Source of the DNA: Candidatus Schekmanbacteria bacterium
GTDB lineage: Bacteria; SZUA-182
Direction of reading: 5' to 3'
Assembly (NCBI GenBank): GCA_016235675.1
Contig: JACRJN010000130.1
Coordinates: 1-34,157 of the forward strand
Length of the DNA stretch: 34,157 nt
Under the pieces are notes generated by a model, which searched no databases, had not been told where the DNA came from, and saw only the letters and a list, made by a program, of their open reading frames with translations. A program made the position numbers and the translations under genes. Positions 6,476 through 29,189 of the stretch are shown piece after piece (positions within the stretch are counted from its first letter, which is position 1; each line of letters starts with the position of its first letter).

Positions 6476-7906
6476 ATGTATCGTAAAATAATATTTCCCG
6501 CCTGGCTTTGTCTGCTGATCTTTTGCGGTTGCACCAAGGCAATGTTTTACGATTTCCTGGATGCCGCCAAGAGTAATGACACCGCGGTGTTGCGTGCTTT
6601 GTTGGTTAGCAGTGAGGATTTAAACGCCAAAGATGCTTATGGCTATACCCCCTTGCATTGGGCGGTCATTTATGACCAGCCTGCTACGGTTAAGGCGCTG
6701 GTAAACAAGGGAGCGAATATCGAGGTGCGGGATGAATACAACAACACGCCCCTGATGTTGGCCGCCGCGGAAGGACAAGAAGCAGTAATTCAGGTCTTAT
6801 TGGAAAAAGCGGCCAATATCGACGCCAAAAACAGAGCCGGGATTACCCCGTTGATGATGGCCGCCGCCAGGGGACAGGTGGAAACGGTCAAGACATTATT
6901 GAAAGAAAATCCCTACATGTCTGCCAAATCCAAGGAAGGGATGACCGCCGTAGCCTTTGCGTTACTCAGCGGAAACGATTTAATCGTCAGTTTAGTCAGA
7001 CGGGCCAGGGCTGCCGACCCGGTTTGCCTGCAAGTCATGAACAGCGAAGCCTTTACTAAAGGTAAAGAAGGTGATAATGCCGCGACAGCATCTATACTGA
7101 ATCGTTATGTGGATATAAACGCTCAGGATATTTATGGGCATACTGGATTAATGTGGGCGGCGGCCTTGGGACAGGAAGATTATGTAGACTCTCTGCTAAA
7201 AAAGGGAGCCGATATAAATTTAAAAAGCAACGAAGGGCTGACCGCCTTAATGTTTGCTCATATAAACAAAAATGACCTGATCGTAAAAATGTTGAAAGCC
7301 GCCGGAGCGCATGAGCCGTCCTGGGCTGAATCCTTTAAACTGGAGTTTACCGATTCGGCGGATAAAAACCAAAAAACAGTCGAAGCACAAGAAGCGGAGG
7401 ACCCGATCAGGGCCGATGACCAGTATTTAATCGGGTCTTTGTTTAATGCCGCCCGTGACGGGCATTTGGATATACTTGAAAACTTGCTGGAAACCGGCCT
7501 GCCGCTGAACGCGCGTAATGAATCCGGACAAACCCTTCTCATGGTCGCCGCTCAAAACGGACACCCCCCGATGGTAAGTTTTTTACTAAAAAAGGGTGCA
7601 AGGATTCACTTAAAGGACAATAACCAAAAAACCGTTTTATTCTTAGCCACGGAACGGGGGCAAACGGAGATTGTTAAACTTTTAATCGATCACGGAGCCA
7701 ATATCACGAATACCGATCAAAACGGCAAAACTTGCTTGCTCATCGCCGCGGAGAGAGGTTATCGGGAGATTGTAAATATCCTGCTGGACAAAGGGGCTGA
7801 TCTTAAATTCAAAGACAGCCGGGGACAGACCGCCATGAGATTAGCCGCACAAAATAACCATCTGGCTGTGCTGGAATCGTTAAAGCTGGCCGGAGCGCGG
7901 CGGTAA
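6476..7906 (+). CDS. Exported ankyrin-repeat protein (probable lipoprotein)
   Basis: This 476-residue protein consists almost entirely of ankyrin repeats. The N-terminus is a signal peptide: basic MYRK, a hydrophobic run to about residue 17, then IFCGCTK. The last cysteine (C19) could be lipidated, although the -3 residue is Phe, so ordinary cleavage is also possible. I count about eleven repeats with the TPLHWA / TPLMLAA / GADINLKS pattern, split by a charged linker around residues 285-320 (EAQEAEDPIRADDQ). Ankyrin repeats bind proteins; periplasmic or surface members are often partners of enzymes or inhibitors, but the partner here is unknown. A 149-bp repeat begins on the first base after the stop codon. 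Confidence 0.88.
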   Translation: MYRKIIFPAWLCLLIFCGCTKAMFYDFLDAAKSNDTAVLRALLVSSEDLNAKDAYGYTPLHWAVIYDQPATVKALVNKGANIEVRDEYNNTPLMLAAAEGQEAVIQVLLEKAANIDAKNRAGITPLMMAAARGQVETVKTLLKENPYMSAKSKEGMTAVAFALLSGNDLIVSLVRRARAADPVCLQVMNSEAFTKGKEGDNAATASILNRYVDINAQDIYGHTGLMWAAALGQEDYVDSLLKKGADINLKSNEGLTALMFAHINKNDLIVKMLKAAGAHEPSWAESFKLEFTDSADKNQKTVEAQEAEDPIRADDQYLIGSLFNAARDGHLDILENLLETGLPLNARNESGQTLLMVAAQNGHPPMVSFLLKKGARIHLKDNNQKTVLFLATERGQTEIVKLLIDHGANITNTDQNGKTCLLIAAERGYREIVNILLDKGADLKFKDSRGQTAMRLAAQNNHLAVLESLKLAGARR

Positions 7907-8055
7907 GGGACTTGGAATTTTCAAATATACCGTTTCTGGATCGTAATAATCACCCCCACCCCGTCCCTCCCCCATCAAGGGGGAGGGGGATAAATTCCCT
8001 CCCCCCTTGCGGGGGAGGGTTAGGGTGGGGGGTATATTAATATTTTCTAAGTCCC
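7907..8055. mobile_element. MITE-like 149-bp element (copy 1)
   Basis: The element starts GGGACTTGG and ends AAGTCCC, giving 7-bp terminal inverted repeats. Inside is a long C-rich/G-rich palindrome (CCCCCACCCC against GGGGTGGGGG arms and CCCCCATCAAGGGGG). TAA flanks it on both sides, a possible 3-bp target duplication. It abuts the stop codon of the ankyrin gene and lies between two convergent genes, where it could also act as a bidirectional terminator. A near-identical copy is at 18963-19112. Confidence 0.88.
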
Positions 8056-17447: not shown

Positions 17448-17491
17448 ATTGAGAACAAGCCGAAAGAAATTAAATTTCTACATCAGGATGA

Positions 17492-17656
17492 AAAATTCTG
17501 TTTAACTTTAGTAACTATAAAAGACGAAACGCTTTTCCGGCCATAACCGACCCAATCAAGCAAACCCTGCAAACCAAGTTCTCCGACCGGGTTAGTTTCG
17601 CTAGCCTGGAGTGTCTGCTCTACAGTCACGATCTGGGAACGCCTCCACCCGCGCTT
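17492..17656 (+). other. In-frame coding extension upstream of the oxidase start, without a start codon
   Basis: The reading frame of the FAD oxidase stays open back to a TGA at 17489-17491. The last part of this stretch translates to FSDRVSFASLECLLYSHD and LGTPPPALVP, which resembles the N-terminus of glycolate-oxidase-type proteins. No ATG, GTG or TTG lies in frame; only ATT, CTG and ATA are available. Either a rare start codon is used or the true start has been lost. Confidence 0.55.
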
Positions 17657-19405
17657 GTGCCGTTAATCAGCCGGCGTATTGCCGAAGGAATCGTCCAGCC
17701 TTGCGATGAGCCGGAATTGATCTGGCTGCTTAAGTTTGCCGATCAACATAAAATCCCGCTTACCCCCAGAGGAAAGGGAACCTCCGGTTACGGCGGAGCT
17801 GTTCCCAGATACGGCGGTCTGGTGGTGGATTTTACCCGGATGAACAAGCTGTTGAGTATCGACGCAGCCAAATGTACCGTGACTGTTGAACCGGGAATGG
17901 TCTGGCTGGATTTGGAGGCCAAACTGGCTGATTATGGGCTGTCCCTGAGGCTTTATCCCGGCAGCGCCCCGTCGTCTACCGTTGCCGGATGGCTGGCTCA
18001 GGGGGGAAGCGGTTTCGGAAGTTACAGTTATGGCTGGTTTGGCGACAATGTCGTCAGCGCCAGGGTGGTTTTGCCGGATGGTGAGGCGGTTAGTTATACT
18101 GCGGATGCCTTGGATTTAGTAAAGGATGCCGGGGGCCTAACCGGTTTTATCAGCGCCATTACCATTAAAGTCAAGCCCGCCGGGAAAATGCACATCTTAA
18201 CCGCCGCGCTAAAAACGGAATCCCAGCTTAGCGGGCTGCTGAACGCGATCGTTCAAAAGGGGCTTGATCTCTGGTCTGTAAGCTTTGTTAACCCTTACCG
18301 GGAACAGCTACAAAACAAGCTGCGTGAACCGCCAACCCCGGCAGCGGATTCTTACCTGATTATTTTTGTTTATCCCGATGGGAAAACCGCTACCACAAGC
18401 GAGTTGGAAGCCCTGGTCGGCACTTATCATGGCCGGGTTTTGGAACCGGAATTTTCCGAACGGCTCTGGCAGGAACGCTTCCACTCGCTTCAAATCAAAA
18501 AGCTTGCCCCCTCGCTGATTTCCACCAAAGTAGCCATTCCCCTGGCTTCTTTGGAAACAGCCCTGGGGAATTGCCGTAAATTAAAGCCTTCCCTCGCCAT
18601 AGAGGGTGTAATTTTGCGCGAAAAAACCGGCCTGTTCCAGGCGGTTTTATTGGGATTTATCCTGCATGACGAGCGGAAAGTCAGCTATAATCTGGTTTAC
18701 AGCCTGTCTTTAAGCTTTATTAAGCTGGCCGAAAAAATCGGCGGCAGACCTTGCTCCATCGGGATTTATTTTAAGTATCAGGCCGCAAAAATCCTGGGGG
18801 AGTCCCGTTTACAGCGGATTATCGGGCATAAACAACAGACCGATCCGCATAATATTCTGAACCCAGGCAAGATTATCGGACAGGACATGCTTTATTATCT
18901 GATGACCTTGACCTGGAAAGCCGAACCCATCGTGCGCTGGCTGGCCAATCGTGTTCCTCGGAGGGACTCGGAATTTTCAAATATACCGTTTCTGGATCGT
19001 GATAATCACCCCCACCCCGTCCCTCCCCCATCAAGGGGGAGGGGGATAAATTCCCTCCCCCCTTGCGGGGGAGGGTTAGGGTGGGGGGATAGGTTAATAT
19101 CTTCTAAGTCCCTGAGAAACACACGATCTGAACCTGCGGGGAACGGGACTAAAGTCCCTGCTCCTAAAAACTCTCGCAAAACCTGGAACGCATTTTGCTG
19201 CGACCAGTGCGGATTCTGCCTGAAAGGCTGTCCGCAATTTCAGGGATGGGAATCCCGCTCCCCCAAAGGCTACTGGTACCTCCAACGTCTGCTTATTCAG
19301 AATCGGTATAACCCGTCTGAAATTAACCTGCCGCCGTTGTCCTGCCTCAACTGCAACCGCTGCCTGACTATTTGCCCCCAGGCGCTGTTGCCTTATCCCT
19401 GTTAG
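17657..19405 (+). CDS. FAD-linked oxidase with C-terminal 4Fe-4S pair (GlcD/GlpC-like), possibly decaying
   Basis: Read from GTG this protein has 582 residues. Residues about 10-200 form a FAD-binding type 4 (PCMH) domain (LTPRGKGTSGYGGAV, TVEPGMVW, PSSTVAGWLAQGGSGFGSY); residues up to about 420 fit the FAD-oxidase C domain, ending in HNILNPGKI. Two 4Fe-4S motifs follow: C515/C518/C521/C525 and C563/C566/C569/C573. Such proteins oxidise 2-hydroxy acids such as glycolate or D-lactate. Three oddities are visible. Homology continues upstream without a start codon. Residues about 436-486 are encoded by a mobile repeat. The protein stops just after the second cluster, at a further repeat, without the CCG domains usual in fused proteins. 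It may be a pseudogene. Confidence 0.78.
   Translation: MPLISRRIAEGIVQPCDEPELIWLLKFADQHKIPLTPRGKGTSGYGGAVPRYGGLVVDFTRMNKLLSIDAAKCTVTVEPGMVWLDLEAKLADYGLSLRLYPGSAPSSTVAGWLAQGGSGFGSYSYGWFGDNVVSARVVLPDGEAVSYTADALDLVKDAGGLTGFISAITIKVKPAGKMHILTAALKTESQLSGLLNAIVQKGLDLWSVSFVNPYREQLQNKLREPPTPAADSYLIIFVYPDGKTATTSELEALVGTYHGRVLEPEFSERLWQERFHSLQIKKLAPSLISTKVAIPLASLETALGNCRKLKPSLAIEGVILREKTGLFQAVLLGFILHDERKVSYNLVYSLSLSFIKLAEKIGGRPCSIGIYFKYQAAKILGESRLQRIIGHKQQTDPHNILNPGKIIGQDMLYYLMTLTWKAEPIVRWLANRVPRRDSEFSNIPFLDRDNHPHPVPPPSRGRGINSLPPCGGGLGWGDRLISSKSLRNTRSEPAGNGTKVPAPKNSRKTWNAFCCDQCGFCLKGCPQFQGWESRSPKGYWYLQRLLIQNRYNPSEINLPPLSCLNCNRCLTICPQALLPYPC
18963..19112. mobile_element. MITE-like 150-bp element (copy 2), in frame inside a gene
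   Basis: It is nearly identical to 7907-8055, with GGGACT and AGTCCC ends. At 150 bp it is a multiple of three, and in the oxidase frame it has no stop codon. It encodes a low-complexity stretch (HPHPVPPPSRGRG, LPPCGGGLGWG) between the flavin domain and the iron-sulfur domain. Confidence 0.9.
19145..19158. repeat. GGGACTAAAGTCCC palindrome in the oxidase linker
   Basis: This is a perfect 14-bp palindrome 32 bp after the 150-bp element. It suggests that the repeat-derived linker of the oxidase extends further, to about residue 505. Confidence 0.55.
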
Positions 19406-19505
19406 GCTTCAGGCTTCGGGCTCTGGGCTTCAGGCTAATTCAAATACCCTCCAGGGGAGGTCTCTTTCTATTCCTGAAGCCCGAAGCCCAGAGCCTGAAA
19501 CCTGA
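19404..19505. repeat. GGCTTCAGG long inverted repeat
   Basis: AGGCTTCAGGCTTCGGGCT and GGGCTTCAGG on the left pair with CCTGAAGCCCGAAGCCC and AGAGCCTGAAACCT on the right. The left end overlaps the TAG stop of the oxidase gene. A half copy is at 2128-2178. Confidence 0.75.
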
Positions 19506-19533
19506 TTTAACTAATTGACCAATCAGAGAATTT

Positions 19534-26234: not shown

Positions 26235-26267
26235 TATTTTTTTATTTCCTCTGATGATAATTCTTTG

Positions 26268-26401
26268 GTAGCGTTCTCAATAAGAGACCTAAAGCGTCAT
26301 TGCGAGGCAGCCTTATCGCCGAAGCAATCTCATCCGCACGCATGGAGATTGCGTAGCTTTTGCTCGCAATGACGCTTCGGGTCTCTGTATTTCTACGCTA
26401 C
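26268..26401. repeat. 134-bp GTAGCG...CGCTAC nested repeat at the legF 3' end
   Basis: Outer arms GGTAGCG and CGCTACC, then AGAGACC and GGTCTCT, then AAGCGTCATTGCGAG and CTCGCAATGACGCTT are nested inverted repeats. The right end lies inside legF and supplies its last two codons and stop. A shorter copy with the same flanks is at 28096-28212. Confidence 0.87.
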
Positions 26402-27109
26402 CAATCCCTTTAACAGCATCTCCGCAATTTTAAAATCCATCAGGTCGTCTATATCTACCGAACGCTCCCGCGGCATTACGTATACACGGCTTTTTTCCAG
26501 GAATACGCTCTTTTGGGCTTTCAAAATATCTTTCCACCAAACATAAATGGAGGCATTCATATCGTAAACCTTCGGGGCGGATTGCCTGGTGGTAAAATCC
26601 CCTTTTTTTACTAAGCTAACCGACCCGTCTTTGGTTACCTCTACCATATTAAAATATGGGTTGCGATACGCTGCCGCGACCGAAAAAACGTTATCGGCGT
26701 TTTCCCGTACCAAAAGTTCGATACAATTATCAATATCTTCAACAGTTCTGAGCGGCGTAGTCACATGCAGCAACACTAATATATCGAAAAGATAATTAGC
26801 GCTTTCCCCCAGCCAATCTATAACATGCAACAAAACATCGATGGTGCTGCTGTTATCCGCAGCCAGATTTGCCGGCCTTATAAAGGGTACTTCCGCGCCA
26901 TATTGTCTGGCAATGTCCGCAATCTTCAAATCGTCTGTAGAAACTATTACCCTGTCAATATATTCAGACGATTTTGCCTGTTCGACAGAATAGGCGATTA
27001 AGGGCTTATCTTTTAGCTTCCGGATGTTCTTTCCCGGCAAGCCTTTGGAGCCGCCCCTGGCTGGAATGATGCAGACTATTTTATGACTTTGATACATATC
27101 GATCTTCAA
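26393..27109 (-). CDS. legF: CMP-nonulosonic acid (legionaminate/sialate) cytidylyltransferase
   Basis: This enzyme activates a nine-carbon acidic sugar with CTP. The protein has 238 residues and shows the NeuA/LegF signature IPARGGSKGLPGKN at 15-28, VIVSTDD, FIRPANLAADNSST and the C-terminal SVDIDDLMDF, typical of single-domain bacterial forms (PtmB in Campylobacter). It overlaps the end of the Gfo/Idh gene by 29 nt from this start, or by 17 nt if MYQSHKI is used. Legionaminate is preferred to sialate because PtmE- and PtmA-like genes are present. The last two residues (VA) and the TAG stop come from the repeat at 26268-26401. Confidence 0.9.
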   Translation of the reverse strand: MKIDMYQSHKIVCIIPARGGSKGLPGKNIRKLKDKPLIAYSVEQAKSSEYIDRVIVSTDDLKIADIARQYGAEVPFIRPANLAADNSSTIDVLLHVIDWLGESANYLFDILVLLHVTTPLRTVEDIDNCIELLVRENADNVFSVAAAYRNPYFNMVEVTKDGSVSLVKKGDFTTRQSAPKVYDMNASIYVWWKDILKAQKSVFLEKSRVYVMPRERSVDIDDLMDFKIAEMLLKGLVA

Positions 27110-28055: not shown

Positions 28056-28095
28056 GAATCCCCCTCCTAATATTTAATCGAGCTATAAAAATTTG

Positions 28096-28212
28096 GTAGC
28101 GTTCTCAATAAGAGACCCAAAGCGTCACTGCGAGGCAGCCTTATCGCCGAAGCAATCTCAGACGCACGCATAGCTCGCAATGACGCTTCAGGTCTCTGTA
28201 TTTCTACGCTGC
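28096..28212. repeat. 117-bp GTAGCG...CGCTGC nested repeat at the methyltransferase 3' end
   Basis: It has the same outer flanks and inner TCA(T/C)TGCGAG family core as 26268-26401, with part of the inner arm missing. Its right end encodes the last seven residues and the stop of the methyltransferase gene. Confidence 0.87.
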
Positions 28213-29189
28213 CAAAAATTTATCAGCGTTTTATAAATCTTAAACCCCAACTTATGCCCAAACAAAAGAAATAATAAAAACATGGCAAAGCGGCCTATGT
28301 TTGTAAACTGATAGAAAAAATGTTCCCTTTTAAATCTATGATGGCTTTGCAGTACTCTCCGGTAATCATCTTTGGCATTTAATGCTTCGGGAGGAATTTT
28401 ATCACTTTTAATCGCTAATACCGCTAACTTTTTCTCTTCGTCTATCGTTAAGGGTAAAAAACCGGCCTGGGCAAAAAGCCTGGTAATTGTTGGAGCGGAA
28501 AAATGAAATAGATGTTCTTTCAGATACCAATCATACCAAAAAGGCAACCACGTGGAATGTGAGTGCATGTTTGGAACCCAAAAAAATATCAATCCATTTG
28601 GTTTTAATAATTTATTTACCATGCACATAAATTCCAACGGATTAAAAATATGCTCAAGTACTGCAAATGAAACTATTAAATCATATGATTCAACAGCTTT
28701 GTGCTCAAATTCTTCAAGAGTTGATACATATATAGGAACTTTTACCTTAGTTTTAGAGAATGCCGCGATATCCGAATCCGGTTCGACTCCAGAGATAGCC
28801 AGGTTTGGGAAGGTTTCTTTCCATGCAGATAAAAATGCTCCGCAATAAGAACCAATTTCGAGCACTCTAAAACTTTTGCTACTTATAATATCAGGAGCGT
28901 ATTTTATTAAGTCAGCCTTTAGATTCTTGGCAACATTCATACATTGTTGTATAGAATCATCAAATCTTTTTTCATAATTTCTATCTTGATTTTCATCTAT
29001 AAATGTTCCATTTTTGTAGTAGGACAAAACCTCTTCATACCTTGGCCTTGGGGATATTTGAGCCAGACCGCATCCTTTACACACTTTATTGAGCAGGTGA
29101 ATGTTATATCTGCCTTTATCAGAAAGCAGTTCCATCTCAGAGCTATGGCATAAATAGCATTGATTGTCCACCCGTGTTGGCTCTACCAT
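28188..29189 (-). CDS. Class I SAM-dependent methyltransferase with N-terminal zinc ribbon
   Basis: This 333-residue protein starts with a zinc-ribbon pattern, C11-x2-C14 and C37-x2-C40. It continues with a class I methyltransferase domain: [11 protein letters not shown] (SAM site), SGVEPDSD, and [17 protein letters not shown]-terminal helical part follows. This architecture is common in surface-polysaccharide clusters, as sugar C- or O-methyltransferases. The ATG overlaps the stop of the PtmA-like gene (ATGGTAG), showing translational coupling. The final seven residues QRRNTET and the TGA stop are encoded by the repeat at 28096-28212, so the native C-terminus has been replaced or extended. 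The substrate is unknown. Confidence 0.85.

Follow-up and report, generated by a model that had tools for sequence, protein, structure and literature searches.

A MITE with a REP-like core lies in frame within an FAD/4Fe-4S oxidase gene of a Candidatus Schekmanbacteria genome

Background

In-frame palindromic insertions are best known from the RPEs of Rickettsia (PMC10969869; PMC3733652), and intragenic REPs have been reported in several bacteria (PMC3733652). The latter include the GTAG/CGTC families (e.g., in Opitutus terrae and Thauera), in which bare REPs or REP clusters, often as opposed pairs of palindromes, carry a GTAG/CGTC tag and lie in frame (PMC3733652). Among MITEs, the enterobacterial RU/ERIC elements (Delihas 2007) are 103-168 bp long, contain open frames and are fused in annotated genes (PMC2759123). 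The Coxiella element QMITE2 is a MITE containing a REP that is itself a target of IS1111; it has 7-11-bp direct repeats and is located mostly in 3' UTRs (PMC5896051).

The window analysed in this study, i.e., the whole stretch of 34,157 nucleotides from positions 1 to 34,157 of contig JACRJN010000130.1 of a Candidatus Schekmanbacteria draft genome (GCA_016235675.1), carries a palindromic repeat within a gene encoding an FAD-binding oxidase with a 4Fe-4S dicluster. The family of this repeat resembles the RPEs in consisting of palindromic mobile repeats of about 100-150 bp that lie in frame in unrelated genes and have one usable frame (PMC10969869; PMC3733652), but it differs from them in its clear transposon ends, its 3-bp TNA duplications and its exchangeable core, and there is no sign of a Rickettsia host. 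The core itself is like the intragenic REPs, whereas here the palindrome pair is enclosed within a shell of terminal inverted repeats (TIRs) and no tag was recognised. The RU/ERIC elements are different in sequence, and exchange of a palindromic core is not described for them in the accessible part of their account (PMC2759123). In contrast to QMITE2, the duplications are 3 bp long, several alternative cores exist, and a second MITE with an 11-bp duplication is nested in hairpin loops. The preliminary description of this DNA had drawn a parallel with the Rickettsia RPEs, which stands; its view that such insertions are uncommon elsewhere was too strong, since in-frame REPs and MITEs are described from several other bacteria (PMC3733652, PMC2759123, PMC10969869).

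The family combines traits of all three classes: those of MITEs (terminal inverted repeats, a target duplication, a length below about 500 bp, many copies, and no transposase ORF within the 147-150-bp element), those of RPEs (in-frame location in four unrelated genes, counting the shell family, and a long palindrome of about 100-150 bp) and those of REPs/BIMEs (short palindromes in opposed pairs that are also found alone). As far as could be tested, the element therefore represents a MITE family that behaves like the RPEs, with TIRs, target-site duplications and a REP-like core, and is not an RPE by descent.

Results and discussion

Anatomy and genomic distribution of the element

The window contains two copies of the element (Table 1), which are 96% identical. 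The intragenic copy has a core of two opposed palindromes of ~40 bp each and is predicted to form a single long hairpin (-91.8 kcal/mol, z = -5.4, with 0 of 200 shuffles equally stable). Because inverted ends are combined with target duplications, the element is considered mobile, in agreement with the preliminary description, which had called it a mobile palindromic element; and because its ends, 3-bp duplications and opposed palindromes make up such an anatomy, it is classified as a MITE with a REP-pair-like core. No GTAG or CGTC tag was seen by eye at the ends of the core-1 palindromes, which are therefore referred to as REP-like only. Screening the element against Rfam with a permissive threshold yielded nothing but hairpin look-alikes, chiefly from miRNA families and with scores well under the gathering cut-offs. 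The second copy sits exactly on the stop codon of the ankyrin-repeat gene, where TAA (7904-7906) is both the stop codon and the target duplication; the duplication thus restores the stop of that gene.

Table 1. Positions of features in the window and of related elements and genes in the host genome and in the class relative G005
Feature	Position	Strand	Remarks
MITE copy (shell A, core 1), in frame within the oxidase gene	18963..19112	+	150 bp; direct repeat with 7907-8055
Left target-site duplication copy, GGA	18960..18962	+	one mismatch to TGA
Right target-site duplication copy, TGA	19113..19115	+	
Left terminal inverted repeat, GGGACTCGGAA	18963..18973	+	family consensus GGGACTTGGAA
Right terminal inverted repeat	19102..19112	-	GGGACTTAGAA on minus strand
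First REP-like core palindrome (CCCCCACCCCGTCCCTCCCCCATCAAGGGGGAGGG)	19004..19043	+	also alone elsewhere, in the host genome and other genomes (query 42-81)
Second REP-like core palindrome	19048..19088	-	opposed orientation; query 86-126 matches
Second MITE copy in the window	7907..8055	+	149 bp; directly 3' of the TAA stop of ankyrin-repeat ORF 6476-7906
FAD-binding oxidase with 4Fe-4S dicluster	17657..19405	+	582 aa from GTG; open frame starts at 17495; upstream codons covered by homology
FAD_binding_4 domain (PF01565)	17684..18091	+	E = 5e-39; residues 10-145
4Fe-4S dicluster domain (PF13534)	19199..19387	+	after the insert; E = 9e-6; residues 515-577
In-frame element in NTP_transf_5 nucleotidyltransferase gene	C118:7124-7276		153 bp; TAA/TAA; protein of 445 aa
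In-frame element in gene for a low-complexity protein	C108:18826-18978		153 bp; TTA/TTA; protein of 1546 aa
In-frame element in TrmN6-like methyltransferase gene	C35:1528-1683		156 bp; TAA/TAA; near the N-terminus; protein of 295 aa
Shell-A core 1			CCCTCCCCC palindromes; core of the window copy
Shell-A core 2			GTCATTGCGAG...CTCGCAATGAC; mostly 135-156 bp
Shell-A core 3			GGCTTCAGGCTT...AAGCCTGAAGCC; 135-192 bp
Shell-A core 4			GGGGCTTTAGCCCC; 140-148 bp
Shell-A core 5	C172:7115-7799 (L092 1416-2100)		685 bp; holds a complete gene for a REP-associated tyrosine transposase, flanked by CACAGGC palindromes
Second-shell insertions	C99:55395-55700, C190:3115-3680, C86:1265-1631, C70:48-330		L022, L019, L018, L020
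Endonuclease-like ORF with CCCTCCCCC palindrome	L025-L030		ends of contigs C132, C104, C59, C151, C149
Oxidase orthologue in G005	L060:1096-2994	-	ATG-started

The 2.98-Mb, 190-contig draft assembly was searched with the element, giving 64 BLAST matches, about 20 of them long, well beyond what chance would produce. At least 13 near-full-length core-1 copies are present in addition to fragments, and solitary core-1 palindromes are found both here and in genomes belonging to other classes. The 13 aligned copies (eight of 149 bp, three of 150 bp, and one each of 148 and 147 bp) have the GGGACTTrGAA ends in common, some with end mutations, and the 3-bp target duplication, mostly TAA/TTA, is exact in 10 of the 13 when end mutations are allowed for. 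A census of the shell was compiled from pattern hits and the genome stretches read around them, with the 17-mer end matching 61 sites compared to 4 for a reversed control pattern. Identical 3-bp duplications flank 23 of the 28 delimited shell elements, a set preselected for at most one mismatch in the target duplication. No autonomous partner, i.e., a DDE transposase bounded by the ends of the element, was found in the stretches read of the draft. Additionally, 3 of 30 elements lie exactly on a stop codon as compared with 1.1% of TAA/TTA sites (p = 0.0045), a pattern that was noticed after the fact and gives only a hint of a preference for stop codons.

Insertion between the domains of the oxidase

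The oxidase frame extends from stop to stop over 637 codons (17495-19405) and stays open through the insert, which encodes residues 436-486 of the 582-aa reading and lies about 27 residues before the first of the eight cluster cysteines. The preliminary description had reported a repeat free of stops within this gene, copied at 7907-8055 and placed between two domains; these statements are confirmed, with the Pfam matches to the FAD and 4Fe-4S domains flanking the insert. Its size of 150 bp is correct for the element but not for the net insertion, which amounts to 153 bp (150 bp plus the 3-bp target duplication), or 51 residues. The proposal that residues 436-486 are a unique insertion is likewise supported by the length of the linker, measured from the PGK motif to the first cluster cysteine: 52-54 residues in seven homologues (from Syntrophaceae/Deltaproteobacteria, KSB1 and Spirochaetaceae) vs. 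109 in the window protein. The nearest relatives found are uncultured bacteria, and the alignment to the class relative G005 breaks at the insert.

The probable history of the locus is that a 150-bp variant of the MITE transposed into codons of the FAD/4Fe-4S linker, keeping the frame and adding 51 residues to the protein. A transposase supplied in trans would recognise the GGGACTTrGAA ends and make a 3-bp staggered cut, mostly at TNA; the 150-bp variant would have jumped into the codons of this linker, taken here as flexible. A trans-acting transposase, translation of the oxidase and neutrality of the insert are elements of this account that we infer.

The same arrangement could have been produced by the assembly if two loci holding the repeat had been misjoined at it, and the 190-contig state of the draft, the repetitive nature of the element and the mismatch in its target duplication (GGA/TGA) would be compatible with such an error. 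An artefact is nevertheless extremely unlikely, given that the two flanks align, in the right order, to a single orthologous ORF, that the linker without its 51-residue insert would measure 58 residues against the expected 52-54, and that three further genes display the same pattern with perfect duplications.

The start of the oxidase gene raises a different alternative. No ATG, GTG or TTG is in frame for the conserved first 54 residues in the upstream region (17488-17660), and the ATG at 17488 is out of the oxidase frame and closed after five codons. This may reflect an unusual start codon, a sequencing error or a decaying gene, and translation of the oxidase is uncertain because the conserved N-terminus lacks a canonical in-frame start. 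If the oxidase were a decaying pseudogene, disuse of the gene would account for tolerance of the insertion and the open frame would be incidental; the protein's lack of the CCG and C-terminal regions present in the 1030-aa Syntrophaceae homologues could be read in the same way. Decay is, however, unlikely to be the explanation: the 637 codons are open through the insert, the FAD region and the eight cluster cysteines are kept, and the three other insert-bearing genes have normal-looking frames. The short form without CCG is also shared with the ATG-started G005 orthologue and is thus not recent damage.

In the AlphaFold model of the oxidase, confidence is low in the linker and across the 4Fe-4S domain (pLDDT < 50 for 485-605), and the model therefore speaks neither for nor against a disordered loop.

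In the G005 orthologue, the linker is 85 residues long and contains a different repeat (CHSEAKSLRIS...FVKND), which is present in about 40 copies in the G005 genome. Two in-frame inserts of the CATTCTGAG type occur in this orthologue, one in the linker that also bears the insert of the window protein and the other in another loop. The same linker has therefore been enlarged in two lineages by unrelated repeats. This independent enlargement indicates that the site is repeatedly extended and could be taken to mean that the peptide was domesticated, with the insertion being kept because the linker has acquired a function. Such a role is very unlikely, as recurrence at the linker is also what simple tolerance predicts and the peptide is of low complexity; the copies of the element are, moreover, nearly identical and hence young. 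A tolerated transposition remains the preferred reading for the oxidase.

Frame compatibility and further insertions

The window element contains no stop in the oxidase frame and has a length divisible by three. Since 150 + 3 gives 153 bp and the variant is open in that orientation and phase, the oxidase frame is intact and lengthened by 51 residues. The 149-bp consensus has no open frame on the strand read in the oxidase and just one on the opposite strand; only the 150-bp variant fits the oxidase, because in this phase the consensus would run into a TAA stop and cause a frameshift (149 + 3 = 152). A compensating mutation as the origin of the additional base in the window copy is made less likely by two other copies of 150 bp (on contigs C127 and C30), one of which is open in the same frame as the window copy. 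The compatible length thus existed in the family and need not stem from a repair after insertion.

Across the genome, four of the 28 delimited shell elements, including the one in the window oxidase, are located inside ORFs of at least 290 aa, and all four are in frame; the scan covered ORFs spanning the elements, and the other 24 may include copies that disrupt genes. All four have one orientation and phase (RDLE...SKSL), and the frame stays open in each gene when the element and one duplication are removed in silico. The further in-frame copies for which the preliminary description had proposed a search thus exist in at least three more genes as far as the shell is concerned, but none of the three contains the window core: among the four genes, only the oxidase carries core 1, and the other elements are shell A with a different core. 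Their target duplications are perfect.

At the nucleotidyltransferase gene, alignments to the relatives G007 and G003 continue on either side of the site, with no more than 12 and 6 nt in place of the 51-residue insert, and the Pfam match to NTP_transf_5 extends from profile positions 2-218 with the insert to 2-248 of 249 without it. For the methyltransferase, the homologue alignment begins at about residue 57-66, just past the insert. For the 1546-aa protein, the open frame and the perfect duplication are the whole of the evidence.

These locations suggest how such copies might be retained. Insertions into needed coding sequence would be lost unless the length is divisible by three, the orientation and phase are open and the position is tolerant (a domain linker, an N-terminus or a low-complexity region), and the visible copies would be the survivors. 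Of the six frames, the copies within genes keep +2 open and at most one more. Intergenic core-2 copies also have compatible lengths and the same frame open; being recent copies of each other, they provide no proof of selection for coding.

One shell with several cores

The shared arms of shell A (left GGGACTTGGAAATTTCAATTATACCGTTT; right GGGACTTAGAAAATATTAAAGTACC on the minus strand), which vary slightly, surround at least five cores (Table 1). The transposase of core 5 scores 76 bits against NF047646, just below the cut-off of 80. RAYT genes are present on contigs C172, C67 and C185, and CACAGGC palindromes flank those of C172 and C67; among the genes inspected, no CCCTCCCCC palindrome adjoins a RAYT gene. 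The GTCATTGCGAG core is found not only in shell-A elements but also in a third shell (TTGGTAGCG...CGCTACCAA) at 26265-26404 and 28093-28215, so that cores are common to unrelated ends.

Several other arrangements of these repeats were observed. A GGCTTCAGGCTTCGGGCTCTGGGC inverted repeat lies directly 3' of the oxidase stop (19406-19510), and the same palindrome serves as the core in other shell-A elements. The CCCTCCCCC palindrome adjoins a repeated endonuclease-like ORF (DUF559-like by eye) at many contig ends. A second MITE shell (CATARGCGCTAACTTAAG...CTTAAGTTAGCGCYTATG), which has REP-like pairs of its own, has entered copies of the first element at their hairpin loops, duplicating 11 bp of the loop in three of the four cases (CCCGCAAGGGG, CCCACAAGGGG and CCCCTTGCGGG) and a rearrangement in the fourth (C70). 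Its hairpin-tip target recalls elements of the IS4/IS231 type.

A broader reading can be offered tentatively, namely that shell A is a modular transposon platform that takes up various REP-like palindromes and uses them interchangeably as its core; at least five such cores were seen, of which one includes a whole RAYT gene. Its frame-compatible versions (150 + 3, 153 + 3 and 156 + 3 bp), in which one frame is open over the full length, may repeatedly add segments of 51-53 residues and so constitute a recurring source of new protein segments.

Conclusions

The new features are a family with an exchangeable core and the in-frame entry of one shell into four genes; the convergence seen in the G005 orthologue is notable as well. 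Protein-invading palindromes have mostly been regarded as a peculiarity of Rickettsia and of a small number of genomes rich in REPs. With one shell of an uncultured bacterium in the same frame in at least four unrelated genes and an unrelated repeat in the same linker of a relative's orthologue, it becomes testable which protein positions tolerate such additions and whether selection acts on the element itself for a compatible frame. Additionally, the exchange of cores inside fixed ends bears on the relation of REP-type repeats to MITEs.
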